Notes under the pieces: model-generated
Databases searched by the model: none
What the model was told of the DNA's origin: nothing
What the model saw: only the letters and a program-made list of their open reading frames with translations
Part shown: positions 44,467 to 59,860 of the stretch, piece by piece
Layout of the letters: every line of letters begins with the position of its first letter
Numbering within the stretch: the first letter of the stretch is position 1
From: Halorubrum halophilum
Lineage (GTDB): Archaea > Halobacteriota > Halobacteria > Halobacteriales > Haloferacaceae
DNA length: 64,000 nt
Reading direction: 5' to 3'
Assembly: GCF_000739595.1 (NCBI RefSeq)
Contig: NZ_BBJP01000036.1
Location: forward strand, 62,001 to 126,000
Translations under genes and position numbers: made by a program

Positions 44467-44482
44467 TTTAGGCTGGCCTAAA
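44467..44482. promoter_or_regulatory. Iron box 1 (DtxR-type palindrome)
   Basis: TTTAGGCTGGCCTAAA fits TTTAGG-N4-CCTAAA. It overlaps a TATA-like CTTTAGG placed about 23 bases before ATG 44490, and lies in the rhomboid/flippase divergent region. Binding by a DtxR/SirR-type regulator is inferred from similarity to bacterial DtxR boxes. Confidence 0.75.
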
Positions 44483-44489
44483 TCAACGT

Positions 44490-44540
44490 ATGTTCGCTGA
44501 ACGACCCCTCGAACGCCGTCGAAGGACGGCGGACCGATGA
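44490..44540 (+). CDS. Candidate 16-residue leader ORF before the flippase gene
   Basis: ATG 44490 reads MFAERPLERRRRTADR and its TGA overlaps the flippase ATG (ATGA, 44537-44540). The start is placed for leaderless translation from the TATA/iron-box promoter. It may serve only to couple translation to the flippase; no evidence for a functional peptide. Confidence 0.35.
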   Translation: MFAERPLERRRRTADR

Positions 44541-45730
44541 CCAGCGGTCGCGTTCGAGATCGAATCCGAAGCGGCCTCTCGCGGGAGCGGCTCACGGTCG
44601 TCGGAACGTTCGCCGTCCTCGCGGTCGGCGTCGCCGTCACGGCCCGGACCCTCGACGCCGACGCGGTCGTCGGGGCGGTGACGGCGGCGGACCCGGCGCT
44701 TCTCGGCGCGGCCCTCCTTGTCTACCTCCTCTCGTGGCCGGTCCGCGGGCGCCGGTACGCCGACGTGCTCGCGGCGATGGGACGACGCTGCCGAATCGGG
44801 TTCCTCACGGCGGCGGTGTTTGCGAGCCAGACCGCGAACCTGATCGTCCCCGCGCGGGCCGGCGACGGGGTCCGCGCGTACCTGCTCAAGGAGCGTCGGG
44901 ACGTGCCGTACCCGACGGGGGTCGCGTCGCTCGCGGTCGAGCGCGCGTTCGACCTCGTGGCGATCGGCGCCCTCGGGGGCGTCGCGCTCGGGGCTCTGCT
45001 CCTGACCGGTCGGTCGCCCGGATCGGGCGAGTCGGTCGGCGCCGTCGCGCCGTCGACCGCGCTCGCGGCCGCGGCCGGTATCGCCGTCAGCGCCGCAGTC
45101 CTCTCGGTCGCGGCCGTCGCGGTCGCTCGGAGCGACCGGCGGTTCGGCCCGGCGCTCCGCGCTCGGATCGCGCGGCCGCGTCTCTCGCAGGCCGTCGACG
45201 CCGCCGTCCGATTCGGCTCGTCGGTTCGGGTCGTCGCCGCCGACCCTCGACGTCTCGGTGCGGTGTTCCTCTGGAGCGTCGTCGTCTGGGCGCTCGACGT
45301 TCTCACCGCCGTCCTCGTGCTCGCCGCGCTCACTGGCGGGATCGGGGGGTTCGTCGGGCCGCCGGCGCTGCTCGTCGTGGGAACCCTCGCGGTCAGCGTC
45401 GGCAACCTCGCGAAGGTGCTCCCGCTCTCGCAGGGCGGGATCGGGCTGTACGAGGCGGCGTTCACCGGTCTTGTCGTGAGCGCGACGGGGCTGCCCGTCG
45501 AGACGGCGCTCGCGGCGGCGATCCTCGACCACGCGCTGAAGAACGCCGTCACGCTCGCCGGCGGTGGAGTCGCGGCGCTCGCGCTCGGTCTCTCGCCGAC
45601 GGCCGGTCCCTCGGGGGACGGTGAGCCGACCCCCTCGGTACAGACCGACGGAGGGAGCGTCGCCGACGATTCGTCAACGAACGCCGACGGTGAGTGCCAA
45701 TCGTCGAACCGCGGACCGCCAAGTTTTTAG
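44537..45730 (+). CDS. Flippase-like membrane protein (lysylphosphatidylglycerol-synthase TM family, UPF0104)
   Basis: This is a 397-residue protein with about eight hydrophobic helices. It carries family features VYLLSWPVRGRRYADVLAAM, ASQTANLIVPARAGDGVRAY and LPLSQGGIGLYEAAF. Relatives include AglD-associated or lipid-linked-glycan flippase-like domains, so lipid-linked sugar handling is plausible but unproven. It ends in a disordered tail. The stop codon overlaps iron box 2 of the following gene. It is probably iron-regulated through iron box 1. Confidence 0.82.
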   Translation: MTSGRVRDRIRSGLSRERLTVVGTFAVLAVGVAVTARTLDADAVVGAVTAADPALLGAALLVYLLSWPVRGRRYADVLAAMGRRCRIGFLTAAVFASQTANLIVPARAGDGVRAYLLKERRDVPYPTGVASLAVERAFDLVAIGALGGVALGALLLTGRSPGSGESVGAVAPSTALAAAAGIAVSAAVLSVAAVAVARSDRRFGPALRARIARPRLSQAVDAAVRFGSSVRVVAADPRRLGAVFLWSVVVWALDVLTAVLVLAALTGGIGGFVGPPALLVVGTLAVSVGNLAKVLPLSQGGIGLYEAAFTGLVVSATGLPVETALAAAILDHALKNAVTLAGGGVAALALGLSPTAGPSGDGEPTPSVQTDGGSVADDSSTNADGECQSSNRGPPSF

Positions 45731-45741
45731 GCCGCCCTAAA
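45726..45741. promoter_or_regulatory. Iron box 2 (DtxR-type palindrome)
   Basis: TTTAGGCCGCCCTAAA exactly fits TTTAGG-N4-CCTAAA. It overlaps the flippase stop codon and a TATA-like TTTTTAG about 25 bases before ATG 45752, so binding would block a leaderless promoter. Confidence 0.78.
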
Positions 45742-45751
45742 AAATCGGTGT

Positions 45752-46933
45752 ATGGAAAAACGCCGCGCAGTAGACGCGAGCGGGGACATCTGCGTGATCG
45801 TCCCCACGATCCGCGAGTACGAGTGCCTCCGCGAGTACGTCGCGAACGCCCGAGAGCACGGGTTTGACGTCTCCCGGCTCCACTTCGTGCTCGTCACCGA
45901 GGACTTCTGTGACGTCGAGGAGATGCGCGCGATGCTCGACGACCTCGACGTCTCGGGCGAGGTATTTGATGGCAGCCGGCGCGAAGAGTGGTACGAGGCC
46001 AACGGAATCGCGGAGTACGGCCACGTCGTCCCGGCCGCGAGCCACGCCGAGACGAGTTTCGGGCTCCTCTACATGTGGGCCGACGACGACTTCGAGTACG
46101 GCCTCTTTATCGACGACGACACGCTCCCGCACGACGACGAGGACTACTTCGGGCGTCACATGGAGAACCTCGCGTTCGAGGGGGAGATCGAGCGTGTCAG
46201 TTCGGACGAGAACTGGGTCAACGTCCTCTACCAGAACGCCGACGAGCACGGGCTCTATCCGCGCGGCTACCCGTACTCGGCGATGGACGAGACGGTCGAG
46301 ACGGACTCGGTCGAGATCGAGGCCGGCGAGGTCGTCGCCTCGCAGGGGCTGTGGACGAACGTCCCCGACCTCGACGCGGTCCGGATCCTGATGGACGGCG
46401 ACTTGGAGGGACAGGCGCAGACGCGGACGACGACCGACGACTTCGGGGGCGACTTCGTCGCCTCTCGCGGCGACTACCTCACCGTCTGCTCGATGAACCT
46501 CGCGTTCCGCCGAGAGGTGATCCCCGCGTTCTACCAGCTGCCGATGGACGACAACGAGTGGGACGTGGGTCGCTTCGACGACATCTGGTCGGGCCTCTTC
46601 CTCAAACGGGCCTGCGACGTGCTCGGCAAGCGGATCTACAACGGCGGCCCGCTCTGTGAACACAACAAGGCCGCGCGCTCGACCTTCGACGACCTCGCGA
46701 ACGAGGTGGCGGGGCTGGAGCTGAACGAGCACGTCTGGGAGGTGATCGACGGAGCGGGCGGAGACGCCGACTCGTACGCGGCGGTCTTCGACGAGATGGC
46801 CGACGCGCTCGCCGAGGGCGACTTCTCTGAGTGGAACAACGGCGCGTTCCTCAACCACTGCGGCGAGTACATGCGCGACTGGCTCGACTGTCTCGACGCG
46901 ATCCGTCGGACGCCGGCGGTCGCGGACGACTGA
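45752..46933 (+). CDS. RGP-like glycosyltransferase (alpha-1,4-glucan-protein synthase family)
   Basis: This is a 393-residue soluble protein. It has an N-terminal nucleotide-sugar-binding region ICVIVPTIREYECLREYVAN, a DDD metal motif in FIDDDTLPHDDED (about residue 125), and YPRGYPYSAMD and DIWSGLFLKRACDVLGKRIY typical of reversibly glycosylated polypeptides and UDP-arabinopyranose mutases. The exact reaction here is unknown. Iron box 2 controls its promoter, and an iron-box SBP gene follows. There is no signal peptide, so it is cytoplasmic. Confidence 0.82.
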   Translation: MEKRRAVDASGDICVIVPTIREYECLREYVANAREHGFDVSRLHFVLVTEDFCDVEEMRAMLDDLDVSGEVFDGSRREEWYEANGIAEYGHVVPAASHAETSFGLLYMWADDDFEYGLFIDDDTLPHDDEDYFGRHMENLAFEGEIERVSSDENWVNVLYQNADEHGLYPRGYPYSAMDETVETDSVEIEAGEVVASQGLWTNVPDLDAVRILMDGDLEGQAQTRTTTDDFGGDFVASRGDYLTVCSMNLAFRREVIPAFYQLPMDDNEWDVGRFDDIWSGLFLKRACDVLGKRIYNGGPLCEHNKAARSTFDDLANEVAGLELNEHVWEVIDGAGGDADSYAAVFDEMADALAEGDFSEWNNGAFLNHCGEYMRDWLDCLDAIRRTPAVADD

Positions 46934-46952
46934 ACCGACACCACTAAAAGCA

Positions 46953-46968
46953 TTTAGGTTAGCCTAAA
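46953..46968. promoter_or_regulatory. Iron box 3 (DtxR-type palindrome)
   Basis: TTTAGGTTAGCCTAAA is the copy closest to the bacterial DtxR consensus TTAGGTTAGCCTAA. It lies four bases before ATG 46973, between a TATA-like ACTAAAAG (near 46943) and the predicted transcription start. Confidence 0.88.
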
Positions 46969-46972
46969 ACAC

Positions 46973-48118
46973 ATGACCGAACATCTATCAGACGACGTGA
47001 ACCGCCGACGGTTCCTTGCGGCGACCGGGGGCCTCGGCGTCGTCGGTTTCGCTGGGTGCATGGGAGAGGATAACGACGGCGAGAGCGGCAACGGAACTGA
47101 CGGCGACGACGCCGGATCTTCGGTCGGACAGATCGGTTCCGGCCGCGAGGGCCGCGACGCTCCCGGCGGCACTCCGATGGCCGAGATGCCCGACTTGGAA
47201 GGCGAGCTCACGGTCTACTCCGGCCGCGGCGAGTTCCTCGTCGGCGAGCTCGTCGGGTACATCGAGGACCTGTACGACGACTTCGACCTGACGGTCCGAT
47301 ACGGCGGCGCCACCGACCTCGTGAATCAGATCGCCAACGAGGGCGAGGGGTCACCGGCAGACGTGTTCTACTCCGTCAATGCGGGCTCGCTGGGGGCGCT
47401 GGCCGACGCGGGGCGCACGCAGGCGCTCTCCTCGGAGATCACCGACCTGGTTCGGTCGGAGTTCACCACCGAGCAGTGGATCGGCACCTCGGGCCGCGCG
47501 CGCACCGTCCCGTACAACACCGAGGCGTTCTCCGAATCGGAGCTTCCCGACGACATCATGGCGTACCCCGAAGAGTTCGACGGCGACCTCGGCTGGGCGC
47601 CCTCCTACGGCTCCTGTCAGGCGTTCGTCACCGCGATGCGGCTCATCGAGGGCGAGGAGGCCACCCGCGAGTGGCTCGAAGCCGTCGTCGAGTCGGGAAT
47701 CACTCCGTACAACAACGAGTTCGCTACCTGTCAAGGGATCGCCGACGGTGAGATCGACGCGGCGTTCACGAACCACTACTACATCCAGCGCGTCCTCGAC
47801 GGCAACCCCGAGGCGTCGATCGGCACGGCGTTCACCAGCGGCGACGCCGGCGCGGTGTTCAACGTCGCCGGCGCCGCGGTCGTCGACACGGCGAGCGACG
47901 CGACGCTCGCGGAGAACTTCGTCCGCCACCTGCTGTCGTCCGAGGCGCAGGACTACTTCGCCCGGTCGACGTTCGAGTACCCGCTCATCCCCGACGTCGA
48001 GCCGGTCGGGGACCTGCCGACGATCGACGAACTCGACGTCCCCGACATCGACCTGGCGGAGCTGTCCGACCTCGAAACGACCATCGACCTCATGCGCGAC
48101 GCCGGCGTCGAGGTCTAG
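46973..48118 (+). CDS. Fe(III)-type ABC transporter substrate-binding lipoprotein
   Basis: This is a 381-residue protein. A Tat signal (NRRRFLAATGGLGVVGFAGC) has lipobox Cys29 and is followed by an acidic linker. The binding domain (about 65-365) is of the FbpA/FutA type: LTVYSGRGEFLVGELVGYIE, NQIANEGEGSPADVFYSVNAG, and CQGIADGEIDAAFTNHYYIQR with candidate Tyr iron ligands. It collects ferric iron outside the cell for a permease, most likely the one at 54023. Promoter control by iron box 3 fits. The ABC ATPase gene is not in the window. Confidence 0.9.
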   Translation: MTEHLSDDVNRRRFLAATGGLGVVGFAGCMGEDNDGESGNGTDGDDAGSSVGQIGSGREGRDAPGGTPMAEMPDLEGELTVYSGRGEFLVGELVGYIEDLYDDFDLTVRYGGATDLVNQIANEGEGSPADVFYSVNAGSLGALADAGRTQALSSEITDLVRSEFTTEQWIGTSGRARTVPYNTEAFSESELPDDIMAYPEEFDGDLGWAPSYGSCQAFVTAMRLIEGEEATREWLEAVVESGITPYNNEFATCQGIADGEIDAAFTNHYYIQRVLDGNPEASIGTAFTSGDAGAVFNVAGAAVVDTASDATLAENFVRHLLSSEAQDYFARSTFEYPLIPDVEPVGDLPTIDELDVPDIDLAELSDLETTIDLMRDAGVEV

Positions 48119-48139
48119 GTCCTTCCCCCACCGACTCCC

Positions 48140-50422
48140 GTGTCGTCCCGTTCGGACTCCGCTGACCCGCGCCCGTTCGCACGCCGACTCGCGAGCCGCG
48201 GCCGCGCCCGGATCGCTCGCGCGGACCGTTTCACGCTCGCGGCCACCCTCGTCGCCGTCGCGACCGGTGTCCTCACCTTCGCCATCGCCGCGACGCTGTT
48301 CCGGTATCACTCCGTCAACCACGACGAGGGGGTGTACCTCATGCAGGCCGCGATGCTGCTCTCCGGTCAGCTCGAGATCCACGCGGGCGAGCTGGCCGAC
48401 GCCGTCCACCCGTGGTTCTTCATCGAGGACGACGGCCGGCTCTACCCGAAGTACAACCCCGTCCCCGCCGCGATGTACGCGGTCTCGATGTGGCTGTTCG
48501 ACGAGCCGCGGGTGACGCTCGCGGTCGTCGCCGCCGGCAACGCGGCGCTCGTGTCCCTGCTCGGCGGGACGATGTTCGACCGACGGGTCGGCCTCGCGGC
48601 CGCGGTCCTCTTCGCGGCCTCCCCGCTGGCGCTCATCACCTCTTCCGTGTTCCTCCCGTACGCGCCGACGACGTTCCTCAACCTCTGTTTCGCGGTCGCG
48701 TACCTCCGGGGGGTCCGCGATCGGTCGCTCGCGCTCGCCGGGCTCGCGGGCGTCGCGATCGGGCTCGCCTTCTTCGCCCGGCCGTTCACCGCGGTGCTGT
48801 TCGCGGCGCCGTTCATCCTGCACGCGCTCGGTCGGGTGGTCGTCGCGGTTCGGGACGTCGGGATTCCGTCGCTTCCGTTCCCCGGTCCGATCCGCCGCCA
48901 CGGGCTCACGGCGCTCTTTGGTATTCTCTTCGTCGGGGTCACCCTCGCGTACAACCTCCGGGTCACCGGCTCGCCCCTCACCTTCCCGTACGAGGCGTTC
49001 GCGCCGATGGACGGCCCCGGCTTCGGCGAGCGCCGGATTTTGGGACACACCGAGGAGTACACGCCCGAACTGGCGCTCCGCTCGAACGGATACGCGCTGT
49101 GGTACCTCGTCACACGCTGGGTCGTCGCCGGGCCGCTCGGCACGCTGCTCGCGCTCGCGGGCGGCGGGTTGGCCGCGCGGCGGTGGCTGTCCGGGCGGCG
49201 CGCGCTCGGCGGTGGCGTCGGGGACGACGCGGAGGACGCGGACGACGCGGACGCCCGCCGGTTCGAGCGCACCGCGGGGGTCCTCCTCGTCGGCGTCGTC
49301 GTCTCAGTCGTTGTCGGGAACCTCTTCTTCTGGGGATCGAACAACCTCCTCGCGACCTTCTCGGACCCGACCGACGGACTGGTCGCCGGGTTCGGGCCGT
49401 TCTACCACTTCGACCTCCTCGTCCCGCTGTCGATATTCGGGGGCGTCGCCGTCGTCTCCGGGTGGCGGGGGCTCTCCCGGCTCCGCGCGCGGCTCGCGGC
49501 TCGGGCCACCCCGCGAGCGGGTCGCGCGGCGGTCGTCGCGGTCGCGGTCCTCGCGCTCCTCGGCGGAGCGCTCGGCGCCGCCGCCGCCGTCGAGGCGCCG
49601 CTCGACCGGCACGCGGCCCACGCCGACAAGTACGAGACGGCCTACGAGCCGATCGAGTCGACCGAGTTCGACGACGATCTCGTGTTCATTCCGACGCCGT
49701 ACGGCGAGTGGCAGAACCACCCGTTCCAGGCGCTCCGGAACGACCCCGGACTCGACGGGGAGGCCGTGTACGCGCTCGACCGCGACCCGGCCGAGGACTT
49801 CGCGGTGATCGACGCGTACCCCGACCGCGAGCTCCACCGGTACGCGTATCAGGGGGAGTGGACGCCGGATCCGACCCAACACGTCGCCCCGAAGCTCGAG
49901 CCGCTCGACGTTCGGGCGGGCTCGCGGGTCGAGGCGACGACGACCGTCGGCGTCCCCGAGCGCGTCGAGAGCGCGCGGGTTCGGGTGGAGACCGTGCGTG
50001 GCGCTGGTGGGGAGGAAACTGCGGGCGACGACTTCGCCCGCCACGTGGTGACTGATCCCGAGGGGTCGCTGTCGGTCGACTGGTCGATCGGTCCCGACGG
50101 CGCGCGGCTGGCCGGCGCGCCGAACGCGACCGTCCCGATCGACCCCGAGGGCGACGAGATCATCGTGACGGTGACGCTCGTCGATCCGACGGGCGCGACG
50201 TTCACCTATCGGCAGGAGGCGGCGGTTCGGGCCGCGGATGAGGACGTTGCGGATGGCGGTGCCGAGGGCGACCGCGTCGAGGTCGTCTGGCCCCCGGAGC
50301 GCTCGGTGTGCCGGCTGGTCACCGAGTGCGGCACCGAGGGGACGTACCTCCCTGAGAACCCGGACGCCCACGCCGAGTGGGTGGTCTTCGAGACGGACGC
50401 CGAAGGCGTCGAAGATCGGTGA
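48140..50422 (+). CDS. ArnT/PMT-like membrane glycosyltransferase (GT39/GT83 type) with extracellular domain
   Basis: This is a 760-residue protein. The first luminal loop motif is YHSVNHDEGVYLMQAAMLL, with the acidic HDEG typical of lipid-sugar-dependent transferases. Ten or more hydrophobic helices run to about residue 490, and a C-terminal extracellular beta domain of about 250 residues follows. It should transfer a sugar from a lipid carrier to a target outside the cell. It starts at GTG 48140, 21 bases after the SBP gene, so it is probably co-transcribed under iron box 3. Donor and acceptor are unknown. Confidence 0.82.
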   Translation: MSSRSDSADPRPFARRLASRGRARIARADRFTLAATLVAVATGVLTFAIAATLFRYHSVNHDEGVYLMQAAMLLSGQLEIHAGELADAVHPWFFIEDDGRLYPKYNPVPAAMYAVSMWLFDEPRVTLAVVAAGNAALVSLLGGTMFDRRVGLAAAVLFAASPLALITSSVFLPYAPTTFLNLCFAVAYLRGVRDRSLALAGLAGVAIGLAFFARPFTAVLFAAPFILHALGRVVVAVRDVGIPSLPFPGPIRRHGLTALFGILFVGVTLAYNLRVTGSPLTFPYEAFAPMDGPGFGERRILGHTEEYTPELALRSNGYALWYLVTRWVVAGPLGTLLALAGGGLAARRWLSGRRALGGGVGDDAEDADDADARRFERTAGVLLVGVVVSVVVGNLFFWGSNNLLATFSDPTDGLVAGFGPFYHFDLLVPLSIFGGVAVVSGWRGLSRLRARLAARATPRAGRAAVVAVAVLALLGGALGAAAAVEAPLDRHAAHADKYETAYEPIESTEFDDDLVFIPTPYGEWQNHPFQALRNDPGLDGEAVYALDRDPAEDFAVIDAYPDRELHRYAYQGEWTPDPTQHVAPKLEPLDVRAGSRVEATTTVGVPERVESARVRVETVRGAGGEETAGDDFARHVVTDPEGSLSVDWSIGPDGARLAGAPNATVPIDPEGDEIIVTVTLVDPTGATFTYRQEAAVRAADEDVADGGAEGDRVEVVWPPERSVCRLVTECGTEGTYLPENPDAHAEWVVFETDAEGVEDR

Positions 50423-50436
50423 CGCGCTGGCGGTTG

Positions 50437-50800
50437 TTTATAAGTGGTTGAACGTGGATCCGCGGTAACGACTTCCAAAGCCCCAGCCGCTCGCTTATAA
50501 GCAGTTGCCGACGGATCGACGGTGAACACCTCCAAAGCCCCAGCTGTGAGGCCGGCGCACGCTCGTTGCGCTCCTCGCTCAGTCGCTTTGCTCCTTCGCT
50601 GCGGTGCTTCCATCGCCTGCGCCGGCCTCACAGCTGCCCCTTTGAGTCCCACCCGACCGCACCGCCCCGCACCTCACGCCTCCCCAGCCTCGTCAGTCGC
50701 CCTCCGCGTTGCTCCGGGCGACTGACTCCCTCGCGGGCTCCGAGCGGCCGCCAGCGGCGGCCGCTCGGAGGCGCGCCACCGCCTCGTCTACTTATAAATA
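50437..50800 (+). repeat. Hairpin-rich intergenic repeat, copy D
   Basis: Leader units start at 50438 and 50495. Hairpin 1 has perfect 19-bp arms CAGCTGTGAGGCCGGCGCA (50541-50559) and its complement (50618-50636). Hairpin 2 has 11-bp arms GTCAGTCGCCC (50692-50702) and GGGCGACTGAC (50716-50726). Hairpin 3 is GAGCGGCCGCC-AGC-GGCGGCCGCTC (50742-50766). It ends CTTATAAATAG. It lies between convergent glycosyltransferase genes. Confidence 0.93.
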
Positions 50801-50862
50801 GTCGACGCCGGTAGTCCGCGTTACCGTAAAAAGCCCTTCTCGCCTTCTGGGCCGCTCAGCGC

Positions 50863-51654
50863 TCAGAACCGTCGCAGCCGCTCTTCGAGACAGACGGTCA
50901 CGATCGACTTCGCGATGGCGGCACCGCCCTCGATCGGGTCGAGCTTCGTCTCGCCCAGTCGCTCGGCGTACTCGATCGGCTCCTCGCGCACGTCGTAGCC
51001 GCGCATCAATGGGCGGATCAGCAGCTCGGCGGAGAGGCCCGTGTTCTCGGTCCACCCGATATCCTGCACGACCTCGCGGCGGTATGCGCGCATCCCGGTC
51101 GTCGTGTCGTGGACTCGCTCGCCCATCAGGAGAGATGCGAGCGCCGCGAACGACTGGTTCCCGAACCGGTTGAACGCCGGCATCGACTTCGCGCCGTGGT
51201 AGAGCCGGTCGCCGCTGACCACGTCGGCGCCGTCGTTGATCGCGTCGAGGAAGTCGGGCAGCCGGTCCATCGGGTAGGTGTCGTCGCAGTCGGTCGTGAC
51301 GACGACCGGACGGTCCGGCGTCAGGACGGCCTCCCGGACGGCGACCCCGTACCCCTGGGGCTCCTGCTCGATGACGGTCGCGCCGTGCTCGCGGGCGATC
51401 TCCGGGGTCCGGTCCGAGGAGCCGTCGACGCAGACGACCTCGGCGCGCCCGTCCGTGACGCGCTCGATGTCGTCGAGGACGGTGCCAATCGCCTCCTCCT
51501 CGTTGTACGTCCCCATGACGACGCTCAGGTCGTCGAAGGTGTACTCCGCGTCGTCCGTTTCCTCGGGGGCGTCGCCGGTCTCCGCGGTCGCGTCGACGTC
51601 GACGGAGTCGGCTCCGTCGCTCGCCTCGTCGTCGGGCGCCGTGATCGAACTCAT
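50863..51654 (-). CDS. GT2-family glycosyltransferase (dolichyl-phosphate sugar synthase type)
   Basis: This is a 263-residue protein. After an acidic disordered N-terminus (about 45 residues) comes a GT-A domain: LSVVMGTYNEEEAIGTVLDD, VVCVDGSSDRTPEIAREHGA, metal-binding TDCDDTYPMDRLPDFLDAI, and DTTTGMRAYRREVV. It probably loads a sugar onto a phosphoisoprenoid, supplying the ArnT-like enzyme. ATG 51654 is preceded closely by GGAGGT. Iron box 4 lies 34 bases upstream. Confidence 0.88.
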   Translation of the reverse strand: MSSITAPDDEASDGADSVDVDATAETGDAPEETDDAEYTFDDLSVVMGTYNEEEAIGTVLDDIERVTDGRAEVVCVDGSSDRTPEIAREHGATVIEQEPQGYGVAVREAVLTPDRPVVVTTDCDDTYPMDRLPDFLDAINDGADVVSGDRLYHGAKSMPAFNRFGNQSFAALASLLMGERVHDTTTGMRAYRREVVQDIGWTENTGLSAELLIRPLMRGYDVREEPIEYAERLGETKLDPIEGGAAIAKSIVTVCLEERLRRF

Positions 51655-51687
51655 TACCTCCGACGAGCCGCCCCACCCACTTGAGTT

Positions 51688-51703
51688 TTTAGGTTCACCT
51701 AAA
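51688..51703. promoter_or_regulatory. Iron box 4 (DtxR-type palindrome)
   Basis: TTTAGGTTCACCTAAA fits TTTAGG-N4-CCTAAA. It sits 34 bases upstream of the GT2 ATG (51654, minus strand), overlaps its TATA-like CCTAAAAAC, and also overlaps the stop codon of the GMC oxidoreductase gene. Confidence 0.8.
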
Positions 51704-53318
51704 GCGGCTGTGAGAGCTGCTCTCGAACGTCATCGGCGACGCGCAGCGCGAGCGCGGCGATCGTCAGCGTGGGGTTCATCGCGCCGCTCGTGGGGAAGAC
51801 GCCGCTGGAGGCGATCCAGCAGTTATCGAGGTCGTGGGTCCGGCAATCGGCGTCGACGACGCCCGCGTCGGGGTCCGCGCTCATCCGGGTCGTCCCCATG
51901 TGGTGGAAGGCGGGGCCGGTCGCGTCGGGGCCGGCGACCCACTCGATCTCGGCGCCCAGCTCTTCGAGGACCGACCGCTGGATCTCGTTGGCGCGCTCGA
52001 TCGTCCGGAGCGCGCGGTCGCCGACGCTCCAATGAATGTCGGGAACCGGATTACCGTGGTCGTCGGTGCGGTCGGGATCGAGGGTCACGTAGCTGTCCGA
52101 CCGGGGAAGCTGTTCGACCAGTCCGCCCATCGCCACGTGGGTGCCGTAGCCGTCGCGGAGCCGGTCTACGAGGTCGTCGCCCCAGTCGTTGCCGGTCAGC
52201 GCCATCTCGACCGGCGAGGGGCCGGCGTAGTTGAAGAACTCCAGCTTGAACGGGCCGATATCCTCGTCCGCTTCGTCGTAGAACTGGTCGCACGCGCTGG
52301 TGTAGAACCCGACGTGGTTCTGTCGGGTCGGCTCGTCGAGGGTGCCGCCGACGCCCGCGAACAGGTGGTCCATGAAGAACTTCCCGACCGTCCCGCTGGA
52401 GTTAGCGAGCCCGTCGGGGTACTCTTCCGACTCGGAGAGCAGCAGGAGCCGCGGCGTCTCCACCCCGCCGCAGGCGACGACGAAGGCGTCGGCGGTCTGC
52501 CGGTGCTCCTCGCCGTCGGGCGTCGCGTACACCGCGGCGGTGACGCGGTCGGCGTCGTGTTCGAGCCGCTGGACTGCCGCGCGGTCGATGACGTTCGCGC
52601 CCTTCTCTTCCGCGCGATCGACGTGAACCGTGGCGTCGTACTTCGCCCCGGCCGGACAGACGGGCTGGCACGTGCCGTAGCCGACGCAGGCGGACCGGCC
52701 GTCGTACGTCTCGGAGTTGCGCGCGTTCGGCACCGAGTGCATGTCGATCCCCAGCTCCTCGCAGGCCTCCGCGAACAGCGAGTCGCTGTAGGAGGGCTCG
52801 AACGCGGGCATCGGGTGCGGCTCCTCGCGCGGCGGCGCGTAGGGATTATCGGAGGCGCCCGCGACGCCCAGCTCGCGTTCGGCCTCGGCGTAGTACGATC
52901 GGAGGTCGCCGTAGTCGATCGGCCAGTCCGGGCCGACGCCGCGCTCGGTCTTGGAGTTAAAATCGTCCTCGTGGAGCCGCATCACCATCCCCTGCCAGTG
53001 GAGCGTTGACCCGCCGATCCCCTTGACGCGGGCGTGGTTCAGCGGGTAGAACCACTCGCCGGAGTTGCTGTGTGCGTCCCGCTCGCCGCCCACGTCCCAG
53101 ACGTCGGGTCGGTCGTAGCTCGGGCGGATCGCCCGCTCCTGTCGCGTGAGCCGGTCCGTGGGGTCGAACCGCGGGCCGGCGTCGAGGACGACCACCTCGC
53201 GGTCGGCGGCCAGCCGGTCCGCGACGAGCGCGCCCGCCGGCCCCGAGCCCACCACGCAGACGTCCGCGTTCGCCACGGGTGAGCGGTCGCCGTCCCGGCT
53301 TGCGTCTCCGGCGCTCAT
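51699..53318 (-). CDS. GMC-family oxidoreductase, gluconate/sugar dehydrogenase large subunit type
   Basis: This is a 539-residue flavoprotein. It has an FAD motif VVGSGPAG (Gly24-Gly29), the substrate-side segment VKGIGGSTLHWQGMVMRLHE, a Cys-rich CVGYGTCQPVCPAGAKYDA as in gluconate 2-dehydrogenase-type enzymes, and a C-terminal HHMGTTRMSADPDAGVVD with active-site His. It has no signal peptide of its own; the overlapping upstream gene encodes a Tat-signalled small subunit, so the pair is probably exported together. It oxidises a sugar, sugar acid or polyol; the substrate is unknown. No cytochrome subunit is nearby. Confidence 0.88.
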   Translation of the reverse strand: MSAGDASRDGDRSPVANADVCVVGSGPAGALVADRLAADREVVVLDAGPRFDPTDRLTRQERAIRPSYDRPDVWDVGGERDAHSNSGEWFYPLNHARVKGIGGSTLHWQGMVMRLHEDDFNSKTERGVGPDWPIDYGDLRSYYAEAERELGVAGASDNPYAPPREEPHPMPAFEPSYSDSLFAEACEELGIDMHSVPNARNSETYDGRSACVGYGTCQPVCPAGAKYDATVHVDRAEEKGANVIDRAAVQRLEHDADRVTAAVYATPDGEEHRQTADAFVVACGGVETPRLLLLSESEEYPDGLANSSGTVGKFFMDHLFAGVGGTLDEPTRQNHVGFYTSACDQFYDEADEDIGPFKLEFFNYAGPSPVEMALTGNDWGDDLVDRLRDGYGTHVAMGGLVEQLPRSDSYVTLDPDRTDDHGNPVPDIHWSVGDRALRTIERANEIQRSVLEELGAEIEWVAGPDATGPAFHHMGTTRMSADPDAGVVDADCRTHDLDNCWIASSGVFPTSGAMNPTLTIAALALRVADDVREQLSQPL

Positions 53319-53908
53319 CGCGGCCCCTGTCGGTAGCTCTCGGTCCCGCCGGGGTGGCCCTGCGGGTTCTCCAGTCCGACCAGCTCGCCGCCGGTCGGCG
53401 AGGCATACAGCGCGAGCAGGAGCTCGTTGACGACGTGGTAGCGCACCCGCTCGGCGAGGGTTCCGTCGGAGTCCTCGTCGGCGGTGTCGGCGCCGACCTC
53501 GCGGAGGAGCCGGTCTCGGTCGTCCTCGGAGAGTTCGGCGACCGGCGCTCCGTACCACGACCGGGCCGCGTCGTCGAGTTCGCCGACCGTCGTTCGCACT
53601 CCCGTCGCGTGGGCCGATCCGTCGAGCCGCCCGTCGAGGAATCGGTCGACGAACGCCTCGACCCCCTCGACCTCGCTGGGGTAGAGGACCGTCGCGAACG
53701 CGGTCATCGCCGCGCGAACGGTCTCGTCGTCGGGGAGCGCGTCTCCGTCCCCGCCGTCATCCCCTTCGCCGTCCGCTCTCCCGGCGTCGTCGCGGTCGGC
53801 GTCGGCGCGATCGGGTCCGTCGCCCGACCGGCGAGCGGCCAAGGCGACGCCGCCGGTCGCGCCGACGGCGGCCAGCGCGGCCACCGCGTCGCGCCGCGTC
53901 AGTTCCAT
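53315..53908 (-). CDS. Gluconate 2-dehydrogenase subunit 3-type small subunit with Tat signal
   Basis: This is a 197-residue protein. The N-terminus MELTRRDAVAALAAVGATGG is a twin-arginine signal. The remainder is helical, with FATVLYPSEVEGVEAFVDRF and YGAPVAELSEDDRDRLLREV as in subunit 3 (gamma) of gluconate 2-dehydrogenase. Its stop overlaps the ATG of the GMC subunit (ATGA), implying equimolar synthesis and co-export. The TATA box TATAAT (minus strand, near 53936) predicts a leaderless mRNA, with iron box 5 between TATA and start. Confidence 0.87.
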   Translation of the reverse strand: MELTRRDAVAALAAVGATGGVALAARRSGDGPDRADADRDDAGRADGEGDDGGDGDALPDDETVRAAMTAFATVLYPSEVEGVEAFVDRFLDGRLDGSAHATGVRTTVGELDDAARSWYGAPVAELSEDDRDRLLREVGADTADEDSDGTLAERVRYHVVNELLLALYASPTGGELVGLENPQGHPGGTESYRQGPR

Positions 53909-53914
53909 GTCTGA

Positions 53915-53930
53915 TTTAGGCTTCCCTAAA
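53915..53930. promoter_or_regulatory. Iron box 5 (DtxR-type palindrome)
   Basis: TTTAGGCTTCCCTAAA fits TTTAGG-N4-CCTAAA. It lies seven bases before the small-subunit ATG (53908, minus strand) and about 93 bases before the ABC permease ATG on the plus strand. It is placed to control the oxidoreductase pair and perhaps the permease. Confidence 0.8.
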
Positions 53931-54022
53931 CTATTATATCCATCGGACCAGATCGGCGACCGGATCGTAACTGCTAACGGTCGGTGCGGCCGACTTCCAC
54001 CAAGACCCGCCCTTTCCGGACC

Positions 54023-55633
54023 ATGAGCTGGACACGCCGGATCCGCGATATCCTGACAGACGGCGACGGCCGATTACCGGTGGGGCTGACGCTGCTCTCG
54101 GCCGCCATCGCCGGCACGCTGGTGTTCCCGCTGGCGTGGCTGGTGATCGAGGCGGTCACCGTCGAGCGGTCGCGGGCGATGGACCTGTTGTTCAGCGCGG
54201 GAACCGCCGAGGTGCTGGCGAACAGCCTGCTGCTGATGGGCGGCGTCACCGCGTTTTCGATCCTGCTGGGCGTTCCACTGGCGTACCTGACGGCGCGGAC
54301 CGACCTCCCCTTCCGTCGGTTCTGGTCGATCGCGGTCGCGCTCCCGCTCGTCGTGCCGAGCTACGTCGGCGCGTTCTCCTTCGTCTCCGCGTTCGGTCCC
54401 CGCGGCGAGTTCCACGACCTGCTCGCGCCGCTGGGGATCGAGCGGCTCCCCGAGATCTACGGGCTCCCGGGAACGGTCCTCGTCATCACTCTCTACACGT
54501 ACCCGTACGTCTACCTGACCACTCGCGCCGCGCTCCTCTCGCTCGACACGACGCTGATCGAGGCGGCGCGGACGCTGAACCACGGTCGGCTCGAGGCGTT
54601 CCGCCGCGTGACGCTTCCCGTGATCCGCCCGGCGATCGCCGCCGGGTCGCTGCTGGCGGCGCTGTACGCGGTGTCCGACTTCGGGACGCCGACGATCATG
54701 CGGCTCCCCGTGTTCACCCGCCAGATCTACGTCGAGTACAACTCCTTCGGCCGGGACTACGCCGCCCTCCTCTCGCTGCAGCTGCTCGCCGTGGTGCTCG
54801 TCGTGCTCGCGCTGGAGTGGTTCGTCCGGTCCGACCGCTCCGCCCACGGCGACGACGCGGGAAACACCGACCGGCTCGTCGGACTGGGGCGGTGGCGCTG
54901 GCCGGCGACGCTCCTGCCGGCGTCGGTGTCCGCGGTCGCGCTGCTCGTTCCCCTCTGGATCCTCCTCCTGTGGCTCGTCCGCACCGACACCGGTCGCCGC
55001 CCCTCGATGGCGTTCGAGTGGGTGCAGGCGCTCAACTCGGTGTCGGTCGCCGCGGCGGCCGCGGTCGTCGCCGCGCTGGCGGCGCTCCCGGTCGCGTACT
55101 TCGCCGCGAACCACGACTCACCGCTGTCGACGCTGTTCGAGCGCACGACGTACGTCGGGTTCGCGGTCCCCGGAATCGTGTTGGCGCTCGCGTTGGTCTA
55201 CTTCGGGTCGAGCTACCTCCCGTGGCTCTACCAGACGCTCCCCCTGCTGGTGTTCGCGTACGTCGTCCGGTTCCTGCCGCAGGTCGTCGGGTCGACGCGG
55301 ACCTCGATCCTGGGCGTCGACCCGCGGCTGGTCGAGGCGAGCCGAGCGCTCGGCGAGTCGTCGATGGGGGCGTTCCGGCGCGTGACGTTCCCCTTAGTGC
55401 GGTCCGGGATCGTCGCCGGCGCCGCCCTCGTGTTCCTCACGACGATGAAGGAGCTCCCGGTCACGCTCATTCTCCGCCCCTCCAACTTCGAGACGATCGT
55501 CACGCAGATCTGGCGCGCACAAGAGTCCGGGCTCTACCAGTACGCGGTCGTCCCCACCCTCCTCCTCCTCGTCATCTCCGGGCTCTCGATGGTCGTCATG
55601 CTCGCACAGGAGGGCGGCGAGGACGGACTATAA
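54023..55633 (+). CDS. Fe(III)-type ABC transporter permease (FbpB-like, fused double permease)
   Basis: This is a 536-residue protein of about 12 hydrophobic helices in two homologous halves. Each half ends with an ABC ATPase-coupling loop: LIEAARTLNHGRLEAFRRVTLP (about residue 185) and LVEASRALGESSMGAFRRVTFP (about 450). This fused layout is typical of ferric-iron permeases such as FbpB/SfuB, making it the partner of the SBP at 46973. I chose ATG 54023; GTG 53984 would add 13 residues. No ATPase gene follows, because repeat copy E begins at the stop codon. Confidence 0.9.
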   Translation: MSWTRRIRDILTDGDGRLPVGLTLLSAAIAGTLVFPLAWLVIEAVTVERSRAMDLLFSAGTAEVLANSLLLMGGVTAFSILLGVPLAYLTARTDLPFRRFWSIAVALPLVVPSYVGAFSFVSAFGPRGEFHDLLAPLGIERLPEIYGLPGTVLVITLYTYPYVYLTTRAALLSLDTTLIEAARTLNHGRLEAFRRVTLPVIRPAIAAGSLLAALYAVSDFGTPTIMRLPVFTRQIYVEYNSFGRDYAALLSLQLLAVVLVVLALEWFVRSDRSAHGDDAGNTDRLVGLGRWRWPATLLPASVSAVALLVPLWILLLWLVRTDTGRRPSMAFEWVQALNSVSVAAAAAVVAALAALPVAYFAANHDSPLSTLFERTTYVGFAVPGIVLALALVYFGSSYLPWLYQTLPLLVFAYVVRFLPQVVGSTRTSILGVDPRLVEASRALGESSMGAFRRVTFPLVRSGIVAGAALVFLTTMKELPVTLILRPSNFETIVTQIWRAQESGLYQYAVVPTLLLLVISGLSMVVMLAQEGGEDGL

Positions 55634-56143: not shown

Positions 56144-56207
56144 GATCCGCCCTCCTTCACGTCCCGATTCCACACGTACTTACCCGACTCCGCCCCAGCG
56201 GATCGAC

Positions 56208-57143
56208 ATGGACCTCACCGATTCGACCGCACTCGTCACCGGCGGCGCGGGGCTCGTCGGGAGCCACCTCGCCGCGCGGCTCCTCGATCGCGGCGCGACC
56301 GTCCGCGTCGCCGACGACCTCTCGAAGGGCGACCGCGAGCGCGTCCCGGACGGCGCCGAGTTTATCGAGGCCGACCTCACCGATCCCGACGATGTCGCAG
56401 AGGCGGTCACCGACGACCTCGATGTCGTCTTCCACTTCGCCGCGTACACCGACACGAACTACGACGACGACCGGGAGCTGTTCGAGGACAACACGGCGAT
56501 GACGTACAATGTCTTAGAACGGATGCACGAGGTCGGCGTCGACCGGCTCGCCTTCACCTCCTCCTCGACGGTGTACGGCGAGGCGCCCCGGCCGACGCCG
56601 GAGGACTACGGGCCCCTCGAACCCATCTCCATCTACGGCTCCTCGAAGCTCGCCGACGAGGCGCTGATCTCGACGCACGCCCACTCGTACGGCGTCCGGT
56701 CGTGGGTGTTCCGCTTCGCGAACATCGTCGGCCCGCACCAGCGGGGGAACGTGATCCCGGACTTCATCCAGAAGCTCGACGCCGACCCGAGCGAGCTCGA
56801 GATCCTCGGCGACGGCCGCCAGGAGAAGTCGTACATGCACGTCTCGGAGTGCGTCGACGCTATCCAGCACGTCGTCGAGCACGCCGACGAGGACCTGAAC
56901 GTGTATAACCTCGGGACGGAGACGACCACCTCTGTCACCGATATCGCCGATATCGTCAGCGACGAACTCGGTGTCGACCCCGAGTACGATTACACCGGCG
57001 GCGACCGCGGCTGGACCGGCGACGTGCCGAAGATGCGCCTGTCGATCGAGAAGCTCGCCGACCTCGGCTGGGAGCCGTCGATCGAGAGCGACGAGGCCGT
57101 GCGGCGCAGCGCGCGGGAGCTTATCGACGAGATCGTCTCGTAA
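56208..57143 (+). CDS. NAD-dependent nucleotide-sugar epimerase/dehydratase (GalE-like)
   Basis: This is a 311-residue extended SDR with Rossmann motif TGGAGLVGSHL (Gly12-Gly18). Catalytic Ser/Thr is in TSSSTVYGE with Tyr143 and Lys147 in SIYGSSKLADE, and a substrate-binding region FRFANIVGPHQRGNVIPDF. It probably interconverts a nucleotide sugar (UDP-glucose 4-epimerase-like) and could feed the glycosyltransferases of the preceding cluster. It is isolated between repeat copies E and F. Confidence 0.85.
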   Translation: MDLTDSTALVTGGAGLVGSHLAARLLDRGATVRVADDLSKGDRERVPDGAEFIEADLTDPDDVAEAVTDDLDVVFHFAAYTDTNYDDDRELFEDNTAMTYNVLERMHEVGVDRLAFTSSSTVYGEAPRPTPEDYGPLEPISIYGSSKLADEALISTHAHSYGVRSWVFRFANIVGPHQRGNVIPDFIQKLDADPSELEILGDGRQEKSYMHVSECVDAIQHVVEHADEDLNVYNLGTETTTSVTDIADIVSDELGVDPEYDYTGGDRGWTGDVPKMRLSIEKLADLGWEPSIESDEAVRRSARELIDEIVS

Positions 57144-57193: not shown

Positions 57194-57591
57194 ATTTATA
57201 AATCGCTGATTGCGGTCGACCGTGGTCGCCTCCGAAGACCTAGCCGTTCGCTTATAAATGGTCGTCAACAGATCGGCGGCGAACACCTCCAAAGCCCCAG
57301 CCGGGAGGCGGGCGCACGCTCGTTGCGCGCTTCAGTCGCTCGCTCCGCTCGCTCCTTCCAGTGCTTACGTCGTCATCAGAACGCGGAGCGTTCTGATTGG
57401 CTCACGAGAGCGAAGCTCTCGTGAACGCCTGCACCCGCCTCCCGGCTGCCCTTTGTGTCCCGCCCCGAACTGCTCCGCACAGCACCTCACACCTCCCCAG
57501 CCTCGTCAGTCGCCTCCGCTTCGCTCCGGCGACCTCGCGCGTGCTGACTCGCGGCCGCCGAGGGCGGCCGCTCGCAGGCACGCGCCACCGC
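57194..57591 (+). repeat. Hairpin-rich intergenic repeat, copy F
   Basis: Leader units with TTATAAAT are at about 57195 and 57252. Hairpin 1 arms CAGCCGGGAGGCGGGCGCA (57298-57316) and 57430-57448 pair at 18 of 19 positions. Inside hairpin 1 are two extra palindromes, ATCAGAACGC-GGA-GCGTTCTGAT and TCACGAGAGC-GAA-GCTCTCGTGA (near 57376-57423). Hairpin 3 is GCGGCCGCC-GAG-GGCGGCCGC. It lies between the epimerase and argS. Confidence 0.92.
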
Positions 57592-59529: not shown

Positions 59530-59860
59530 TGTTCGATCGGGGTGTTGGCGGCGGATCGATGATGACCATCGCCAAAGGCCAAACCGCTCGCTTATAAATA
59601 GTTGATCGCAGATCGACGGTGACCACCGCCAAAGCCCCAGCCGCGAGGCGCTTCGCGCCTCTGGCAGCCGGCGGCGAAGCCGCCGGCGACTGCCCCTTTG
59701 AGTTCCACCCGACCGCACAGCACCTCACACCTCCCCAGCCTCGCGGCTCACGGCTCGCGGCTCCGCCGCTCGCGTTCGCCGCGTCCCTCGCGCGGCGCTC
59801 CTCGCGGCCGTCAGAGACGACCGCTCGGAGGCGCGCGCCACCGCATCTCATTTATAAACG
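59530..59860 (+). repeat. Hairpin-rich intergenic repeat, copy G
   Basis: A degenerate leader near 59545-59590 is followed by a second unit with CTTATAAATAG (59591). After CAAAGCCCCAG come two palindromes, GAGGCGCTTCGCGCCTC and GCCGGCGGCGAAGCCGCCGG, then CTGCCCCTTTGAG. The second linker is recognisable as CCTCACACCTCCCCAGCCTC, and hairpin 3 is GCGGCCGTC-AGA-GACGACCGC. The right end is ATTTATAAA. It lies between argS and prf1. Its hairpin modules are nearly the same as those in copies A and E. Confidence 0.9.

Follow-up and report, generated by a model that had tools for sequence, protein, structure and literature searches.

Why would an iron transporter have its binding protein and its permease separated by genes for glycosyl transfer and sugar oxidation? 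We examined such a locus in Halorubrum halophilum (assembly GCF_000739595.1, contig NZ_BBJP01000036.1, positions 62,001–126,000 of the forward strand); this stretch of 64,000 nucleotides is termed the window. Every gene that a preliminary description had named there was found where it had been placed (44537–55633), and the reported gap of ~6 kb between SBP and permease holds: SBP ends at 48118 and the permease starts at 53984, leaving 5.9 kb that contain glycan and GMC genes.

Cluster content and iron boxes

The cluster and its surroundings comprise the following features.

44468–44481, no strand: iron box 1 (TTAGGCTGGCCTAA), exact palindrome upstream of the flippase-like gene
44537–45730, plus strand: FLIP, LPG_synthase_TM/TIGR00374 flippase-like membrane protein (PF03706, E 1.7e-41)
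45727–45740, no strand: iron box 2, upstream of RGP; box at 97/105 RGP starts
45752–46933, plus strand: RGP, GT75-like, predicted NDP-sugar pyranose/furanose mutase (PF03214, E 4.2e-17)
46954–46967, no strand: iron box 3, upstream of SBP; box at 93/104 SBP starts
46973–48118, plus strand: SBP, Tat-type lipoprotein, FbpA-family ferric-binding protein (7w3w, E 1.8e-57)
48140–50422, plus strand: GT-C transferase with C-terminal DUF7846 (PF25230, E 5.4e-53)
50863–51654, minus strand: GT2, dolichyl-phosphate hexose transferase NF041391 (415.8 bits, cut-off 375)
51689–51702, no strand: iron box 4, upstream of GT2 and overlapping the GMC stop; box at 59/81 GT2 starts
51699–53321, minus strand: GMC dehydrogenase, FAD-GDH/fructose dehydrogenase large-subunit type (6a2u_B, E 1.1e-88)
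53315–53908, minus strand: SUB3, gluconate 2-dehydrogenase subunit 3-like (PF13618, E 1.2e-9)
53916–53929, no strand: iron box 5, in the divergent SUB3/permease intergenic region; box at 51/72 SUB3 starts
53984–55633, plus strand: PERM, fused two-domain Fbp-type ABC permease (PF00528, two stretches)
56202–57143, plus strand: GALE, SDR nucleotide-sugar epimerase/dehydratase-like (PF01370, E 1.8e-53)

The iron boxes of the preliminary description proved to be five exact TTAGGN4CCTAA palindromes, starting at 44468, 45727, 46954, 51689 and 53916. Allowing one mismatch, the window yielded the same five sites only, where 0.19 would be expected per 64 kb, and five sites were reached in 0 of 100 shuffles. 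Across all 3.68 Mb of the genome we counted 12 exact sites. Five are those of the cluster; the other seven mark a siderophore ABC locus of FecCD type, accompanied by a DtxR-like regulator, and the ATPase of the present transporter. As in a DtxR-family (FerR-like) regulon, the palindromic operator thus accompanies iron genes as well as the gene of a DtxR-like regulator. The 14-bp palindrome is the right form; the 19-bp bacterial IdeR consensus gave no match in the genome at up to three mismatches. The position of box 1 is kept in Halorubrum relatives, and boxes occupy the same junctions in ~100 haloarchaeal loci, at a median of 5–33 bp from the start codon (RGP, SBP, GT2, SUB3). Judged from these boxes, the claim that the neighboring genes respond to iron stands, the same promoters being boxed across the ~100 loci and other iron genes being boxed in the same genome. 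That the cluster is under iron control we infer from its boxes and from what else the regulon contains.

The transporter is of Fbp type and, from its sequence, a predicted Fe(III) importer. SBP, which also matched 4elo and FbpA (1d9y), carries the adjacent Fe-ligand tyrosines of that family, and its N-H-Y-Y at 267–270 is invariant in 105 sequences. PERM may instead start at the ATG at 54023, and its orthologs adjoin SBP in other genera. The ATPase lies outside the window on another contig (C81, 8004–9122) with its own iron box at C81:9223, and shares 66% identity with the ATPase encoded in the cluster of a different genus; as in FbpABC, a two-domain permease is thus accompanied by a dedicated ATPase. 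Likeness to the bacterial FbpABC, Sfu and Hit systems extends to the FbpA-family SBP with its tyrosine pair, the fused permease and the MalK-type ATPase. Unlike those systems, this one is interleaved with glycan and GMC genes, and the Halorubrum genome studied here carries the ATPase gene apart, on a separate contig, behind a box of the type seen in the cluster.

Inheritance of the sugar enzymes

RGP, GT2 and the DUF7846 transferase (the class-wide distribution of the GT-C protein was read via DUF7846) have one and the same distribution: all three are present in 154 of the 194 genomes, some of which carry them unlinked. Haloferax volcanii is among the carriers of all three. The GMC ortholog was present in 35 of 35 sampled set-positive genomes and in 0 of 20 negatives, a pattern that holds when it is unlinked. 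Within at least five genera that otherwise carry the set, there are genomes from which it is missing as a whole. Most genomes examined that lack the set keep a plain Fbp operon, mostly boxed. In a compact arrangement, on Salarchaeum plasmid pJOR178, the locus is a run of eight genes (RGP-SBP-PERM-ATP-GT39-SUB3-GMC-GT2) with boxes before RGP, SBP, SUB3 and GT2. The expectation that the neighboring genes would be conserved together is therefore borne out, with four enzymes (RGP, GT2, GT-C, GMC) all-or-none across haloarchaea. Given this inheritance and the plain Fbp operons of most negatives, the glycan genes form a single, obligate pathway added on to Fbp iron uptake; since Fbp operons persist without it, the pathway is dispensable for Fbp uptake as such.

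Enzymes of the sugar pathway

RGP matched MtdL (7yua) at E 5.9e-23. With the catalytic residues of MtdL taken from PMC9937993, its DXD, nucleophile Arg159, Arg257, Asp260 and His287 correspond to RGP D121–123, R171, R274, D277 and H304, all of which, with D206 and S247, are invariant in 106 sequences. The MtdL pocket residues Asp87, Gln229 and His292 are absent from RGP, which has H98, M248 and R309 instead; these sugar and phosphate pocket positions may be MtdL-specific rather than family-defining. Because the pocket differs, mutase activity and substrate are uncertain, and we name the protein GT75-like rather than a proven mutase. It shares family and Mn/nucleophile residues with MtdL, Hyg20 and plant UAM, but is divergent, with an N-terminal part unaligned to MtdL and changed sugar-pocket residues, and it is under iron boxes and inherited with the glycan set.

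The closest solved relative of GT2 is the dolichol-P-mannose synthase 5mlz. For the GT-C protein, annotated elsewhere as glycosyltransferase family 39, sequence-profile search gave no useful match and no homology to a solved GT-C. Its AF2 model (pLDDT 86.6) has a GT-C fold by Foldseek, with matches to AglB (E 3.0e-07), ArnT and AftA/Emb. N60, D62 and E63 are invariant, D62–E63 falling in the region where the acidic catalytic residue of the first outer loop would be expected. These nearest folds are enzymes that use polyprenyl-linked sugar donors. AftA/Emb use a furanosyl donor, fed in mycobacteria by a decaprenyl-phospho-arabinofuranose route whose furanose is made via DprE1/2. The haloarchaeal set resembles that route in its predicted logic, which pairs a polyprenyl-linked sugar with a GT-C transferase outside the membrane, and its sugar is probably furanosyl, but GT75, rather than DprE1/2, would generate the furanose while the sugar is still NDP-linked. 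Haloarchaeal Agl N-glycosylation (AglJ, AglD, AglB) likewise uses dolichyl-phosphate donors and a GT-C fold in AglB, and GT2 is related to AglJ (TIGR04182 at 129 bits); the present set differs in its genes, its iron boxes, its lack of an oligosaccharyltransferase and its all-or-none occurrence with GMC.

GMC has the [3Fe-4S] cysteines of FAD-GDH and FDH (C212/C218/C222, in 60/60 sequences), with H474 in 58/60 and N516 in 59/60. SUB3 has a twin-arginine N-terminus, MELTRRD, with R5 and R6 invariant; beyond its Pfam match, it showed no relative among solved structures by sequence profile and no significant fold match. The pair thus resembles FAD-glucose dehydrogenase, fructose dehydrogenase and gluconate 2-dehydrogenase in combining a C-x5-C-x3-C catalytic subunit with a Tat-type subunit 3. 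Unlike those complexes, the cluster encodes no cytochrome c subunit; no gene that we identified in the window cluster codes for one, and none is annotated in the pJOR178 run.

A proposed surface sugar in iron capture

From the gene identities, co-regulation sites, linkage and four-enzyme inheritance, which the computation established, we infer a furanose product, an order of steps, an acceptor and a role in iron capture. Without iron, a DtxR-like repressor would leave the TTAGGN4CCTAA operators, and the sugar pathway would be made together with the Fe(III) importer, which consists of the SBP lipoprotein, the fused permease and the separately encoded ATPase. RGP would convert an NDP-hexopyranose to its furanose form, GT2 would put the furanose sugar on dolichyl phosphate, the linked sugar would be flipped outward, perhaps by FLIP, and GT-C/DUF7846 would move it to a surface acceptor. 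Tat-exported SUB3–GMC would oxidize it there, and the oxidized sugar would bind, or help mobilize, Fe(III) for SBP.

We give an even chance to this reading of the locus as an iron-starvation module coupling an Fbp importer to an extracytoplasmic sugar pathway. It draws on the boxes at the cluster, its ATPase, the FecCD locus and the DtxR-like regulator, and at the same starts in ~100 loci; on the identical genome sets, GMC co-inheritance and the compact plasmid run; and on the GT-C fold, the MtdL catalytic residues kept in RGP and the Fe(III)-ligand tyrosines of SBP. Against it, GMC requires an Fe-S cluster, an odd investment when iron is scarce; SUB3 is unmatched to a solved small subunit, the RGP pocket is changed, and Fbp operons occur without the set. 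The preliminary reading of an iron-starvation response that makes a surface glycan or oxidizes a sugar outside the cell is partly supported. The shared boxes and the all-or-none inheritance suggest that haloarchaea catch scarce iron with the help of a dedicated surface sugar. More tentatively, and with a low probability, we propose a dolichyl-phosphate-furanose pathway whose product, once oxidized outside the cell by the Tat-exported GMC dehydrogenase, would chelate ferric iron while bound to the cell, acting as a siderophore-like glycan anchored at the surface that feeds the Fbp importer.

If that were true, iron acquisition of an undescribed kind would be present in about four fifths of sampled haloarchaea, in a field, haloarchaeal iron uptake, that is poorly understood. 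We found no described system of this make-up in the literature searched, though regulon tables outside it (Schmid 2011, Leyn and Rodionov 2015, Martinez Pastor 2024 on TroR) may mention the genes; the archaeal O-glycosylation route has been described as unknown (PMC8241124). The conserved, iron-boxed set ties iron import to glycosyl transfer, its four enzymes forming one inherited unit across the class, and predicts a new polyprenyl-linked sugar, perhaps with surface-bound Fe(III) capture. Natural minus strains within the same genera serve as controls, and there are definite deletion targets in culturable organisms.

Instead of building an iron-binding surface glycan, the pathway might glycosylate the transport lipoprotein (or permease), O- or N-linked, stabilizing it or tuning its iron binding. 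In most genera the GT-C gene comes directly after one for the ATPase, the permease or SBP, and the SBPs of glycan loci come close to forming a single clade, in which about two losses are nested. We nonetheless think this unlikely: Ser/Thr content of the SBP linker shows no clear excess (0.152 in glycan loci, 0.141 in genomes without the set), sequons are rare in both groups, SBPs are intact in genomes that lost the set, and the exported dehydrogenase is left unexplained. Its linker thus has no Ser/Thr or sequon enrichment that points to SBP in particular, and SBP as the glycan acceptor was set aside.

Less likely still, GMC/SUB3 would be the functional center, oxidizing an extracellular sugar and passing electrons outward to reduce Fe(III), with the glycosyl genes supplying or anchoring the substrate. 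The FAD-GDH/FDH type with its [3Fe-4S] motif, the inheritance of GMC with the glycan enzymes and the separate box of SUB3 would fit, but the cytochrome c subunit of FAD-GDH/FDH is missing from the cluster, and the importer is of ferric (FbpA) rather than ferrous type.

An iron-controlled envelope change outside iron uptake, such as alternative S-layer or glycolipid decoration in iron-poor cells, seems improbable. Several genomes do have GT2 and GMC well away from the transporter, and there are Fbp operons without the set; yet the great majority of loci have the enzymes interleaved or in line with SBP-permease-ATPase, a gene order inside the transporter operon that is otherwise hard to account for. 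That the genes are ordinary neighbors, joined by chance or shared genome neighborhood, is very improbable even though every family is common on its own, since the phyletic profile (identical sets over the 194 genomes, joint absence in the at least five genera) already refutes it, and most promoters are boxed.

Two further proteins vary in their attachment to the set. FLIP, which exceeds the TIGR00374 cut-off by 69 bits and gave no useful match to solved structures by sequence-profile search, adjoins RGP in Halorubrum, Natrinema and others; among genomes read, the locus is without FLIP in Haloarcula and g28. GALE adjoins FLIP-RGP in Natrinema and relatives and is in the conserved neighborhood of many genera; it is a conserved neighbor outside the obligate core. 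In iron-starved Haloferax volcanii, HVO_1859 (UPF0104 family), a possible relative of FLIP, rose 11.6-fold, and HVO_0655 (GalE family), a possible relative of GALE, 12.7-fold (PMC11349517).

A glycan gene set in an iron transporter locus

The gene names that the preliminary description gave to the cluster at 44537-55633 were borne out by gene order and family matches. The cluster and a neighbouring gene are as follows.

44537-45730, +, flippase-like protein (FLIP)
45752-46933, +, GT75-like protein (RGP)
46973-48118, +, FbpA-type ferric-binding lipoprotein (SBP)
48140-50422, +, GT39-type GT-C glycosyltransferase with DUF7846
50863-51654, -, dolichyl-phosphate hexose transferase (GT2)
51699-53321, -, GMC dehydrogenase (GMC)
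53315-53908, -, Tat-type subunit 3 of the dehydrogenase (SUB3)
53984-55633, +, fused Fbp-type permease
56202-57143, +, SDR epimerase-like gene (GALE)

Three intergenic copies of a non-coding repeat family of ∼300–400 bp were also noted in the window (50447-50776, 57204-57583, 59544-59836), ∼68–90% alike in parts and with mutually similar translations of their spurious ORFs.

The same gene set, looked for in other genomes, recurs in tblastn maps of 108 haloarchaeal loci. RGP is followed by SBP in nearly every locus, and then by one of two layouts: permease-ATPase-GT39 in line or the arrangement of the window, in which GT39 comes first and the permease lies beyond SUB3-GMC. The cluster usually ends with GT2. 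Salarchaeum plasmid pJOR178 carries a single eight-gene run, RGP-SBP-permease-ATPase-GT39-SUB3-GMC-GT2, annotated with generic names only; its boxes (see below) were seen in locus L162. In Halobaculum roseum (L192) a 337-kb plasmid carries the set; GT2 is ∼12 kb from RGP there, and the ATPase's only annotation is that of a TOBE-domain fragment.

Iron boxes and regulon

Exact matches to the iron box, TTAGGN4CCTAA, a putative DtxR-family operator, number five in the 64-kb window, each at a gene start of the glycan/iron cluster; allowing one mismatch returned the same five and no more (0.19 expected). The whole 3.68-Mb genome has 12 exact sites. Six of the seven outside the window mark one locus, where genes for a FecCD permease and an ABC ATPase lie with those for two siderophore-type SBPs (Peripla_BP_2) and a protein carrying the DNA-binding domain of iron-dependent repressors. 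The seventh precedes the gene at C81:8004-9122, whose product is the genome's best match (66%) to the ATPase located inside the cluster in another genus. With this boxed ATPase on contig C81 and the permease and SBP on C68, the Fbp-type transporter is therefore divided between two contigs, joined by the same operator. Across the mapped loci, boxes lie at the start of RGP in 97/105 (median 13 bp to the start codon), SBP in 93/104 (5 bp), GT2 in 59/81 (33 bp) and SUB3 in 51/72 (8 bp). Operator and regulon content together point to iron control of the cluster.

The box-dense siderophore locus (G000:C81:90192-100187) also encodes FAD-dependent reductase-like proteins and an unannotated 412-aa protein, and its DtxR-like regulator gene has a box near its start. 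Four Haloarcula loci (L120, L121, L124, L129) have a ∼3.1-kb unannotated stretch upstream of RGP, bounded by iron boxes, that may hold further regulon members.

All-or-none inheritance

RGP (PF03214), GT2 (NF041391, over cut-off) and DUF7846 were each found in 154 of one sample of 194 haloarchaeal genomes. The three genome lists, compared by eye, were identical, as were the listed absentees (n=20), and shared occurrence held even where GT2 is far from RGP (e.g. genomes G066, G117, G184, G010). Joint absence within otherwise positive genera (g1, genome G136; g6, G039; g26, G070; g51, G088/G089; g54, G095) suggests that these genes were lost or gained together on at least five separate occasions. 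A GMC ortholog (E ≤ 1e-100; best match at least 64% identical) was present in 35/35 positive genomes and 0/20 negative ones. Because the genomes are related, no simple p-value attaches to this co-occurrence, but the pattern of RGP, GT2, the DUF7846 glycosyltransferase and GMC is that of one pathway. H. halophilum has a GMC paralog elsewhere (G000:C95:35789-37408), 55% identical to the cluster GMC over 531 residues.

An FbpA-like SBP is kept in 17 of the 20 negative genomes (37–48% identity). In the 11 negative-genome loci read, it lies beside a permease, in most cases accompanied by an ATPase and boxes, and none of these loci has glycan genes; thus the transporter can do without the pathway. 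The SBP tree needs three label changes, with glycan-locus SBPs forming one main branch in which two negative sets are nested; the best reading is that the glycan genes were lost twice.

Enzymes and a proposed pathway

The families of the catalysts are well supported. RGP matches the GT75 mutase MtdL (7yua, E 5.9e-23), for which residue roles, including the DXD and nucleophile Arg159, have been described (PMC9937993). Equivalents of the DXD, Arg159, Asp195, Ser228, Arg257, Asp260 and His287 are invariant in 106 RGP sequences; Asp87, Gln229 and His292 become His, Met and Arg. Since these pocket residues are changed, we grade the furanose step as likely but unproven. An unlinked second RGP in genome G062 (G062:C2:1525556-1526527, L163; 451.9 bits) is far closer to the main PF03214 model than the iron-locus RGP. 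Paralogs at L055 (9748-10896) and L057 (6257-7414), ∼64% identical to the window RGP, lack iron boxes and the surrounding cluster, and their genomes also have the iron-locus copy.

GT2 scores above the family threshold for dolichyl-phosphate hexose transferases, and its closest solved structure is dolichol-phosphate mannose synthase. The GT39-type protein is predicted (good model, pLDDT 86.6) to have the GT-C fold of AglB, ArnT and mycobacterial AftA/Emb, a likeness of fold class rather than near kinship, as TM-scores are modest (0.3–0.5). GMC belongs with the FAD-GDH/fructose dehydrogenase enzymes, and its three [3Fe-4S] cysteines are present in 60/60 sequences; the twin-arginine at the SUB3 start is invariant, as is N-H-Y-Y in the FbpA-family SBP.

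The required location of each enzyme suggests a simplest order. RGP would act on an NDP-sugar to form a furanose, which would be loaded as a dolichyl-phosphate sugar, exposed outward and transferred by the DUF7846 GT-C enzyme; SUB3-GMC would then oxidise the sugar outside the cell. Co-regulation and gene order suggest a surface acceptor and a role in Fe(III) capture. Mobilisation of iron by an oxidised surface sugar would account for an exported dehydrogenase that shares its inheritance with glycosyl enzymes and has its gene within an iron transporter locus. Glycosylation of the transporter explains less; SBP as glycan acceptor, tested by linker composition, gave a negative result. Envelope remodelling likewise explains less than iron mobilisation.

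The preliminary description knew of no system with this make-up, and our literature search, with most subscription papers outside its reach, likewise found no paper describing the gene set. In Haloferax volcanii under iron starvation, fhu operons have a FerR signal and are iron-responsive, and the most strongly induced proteins include one of the UPF0104 family and one of the GalE family (PMC11349517); these two are possible counterparts of FLIP and GALE.
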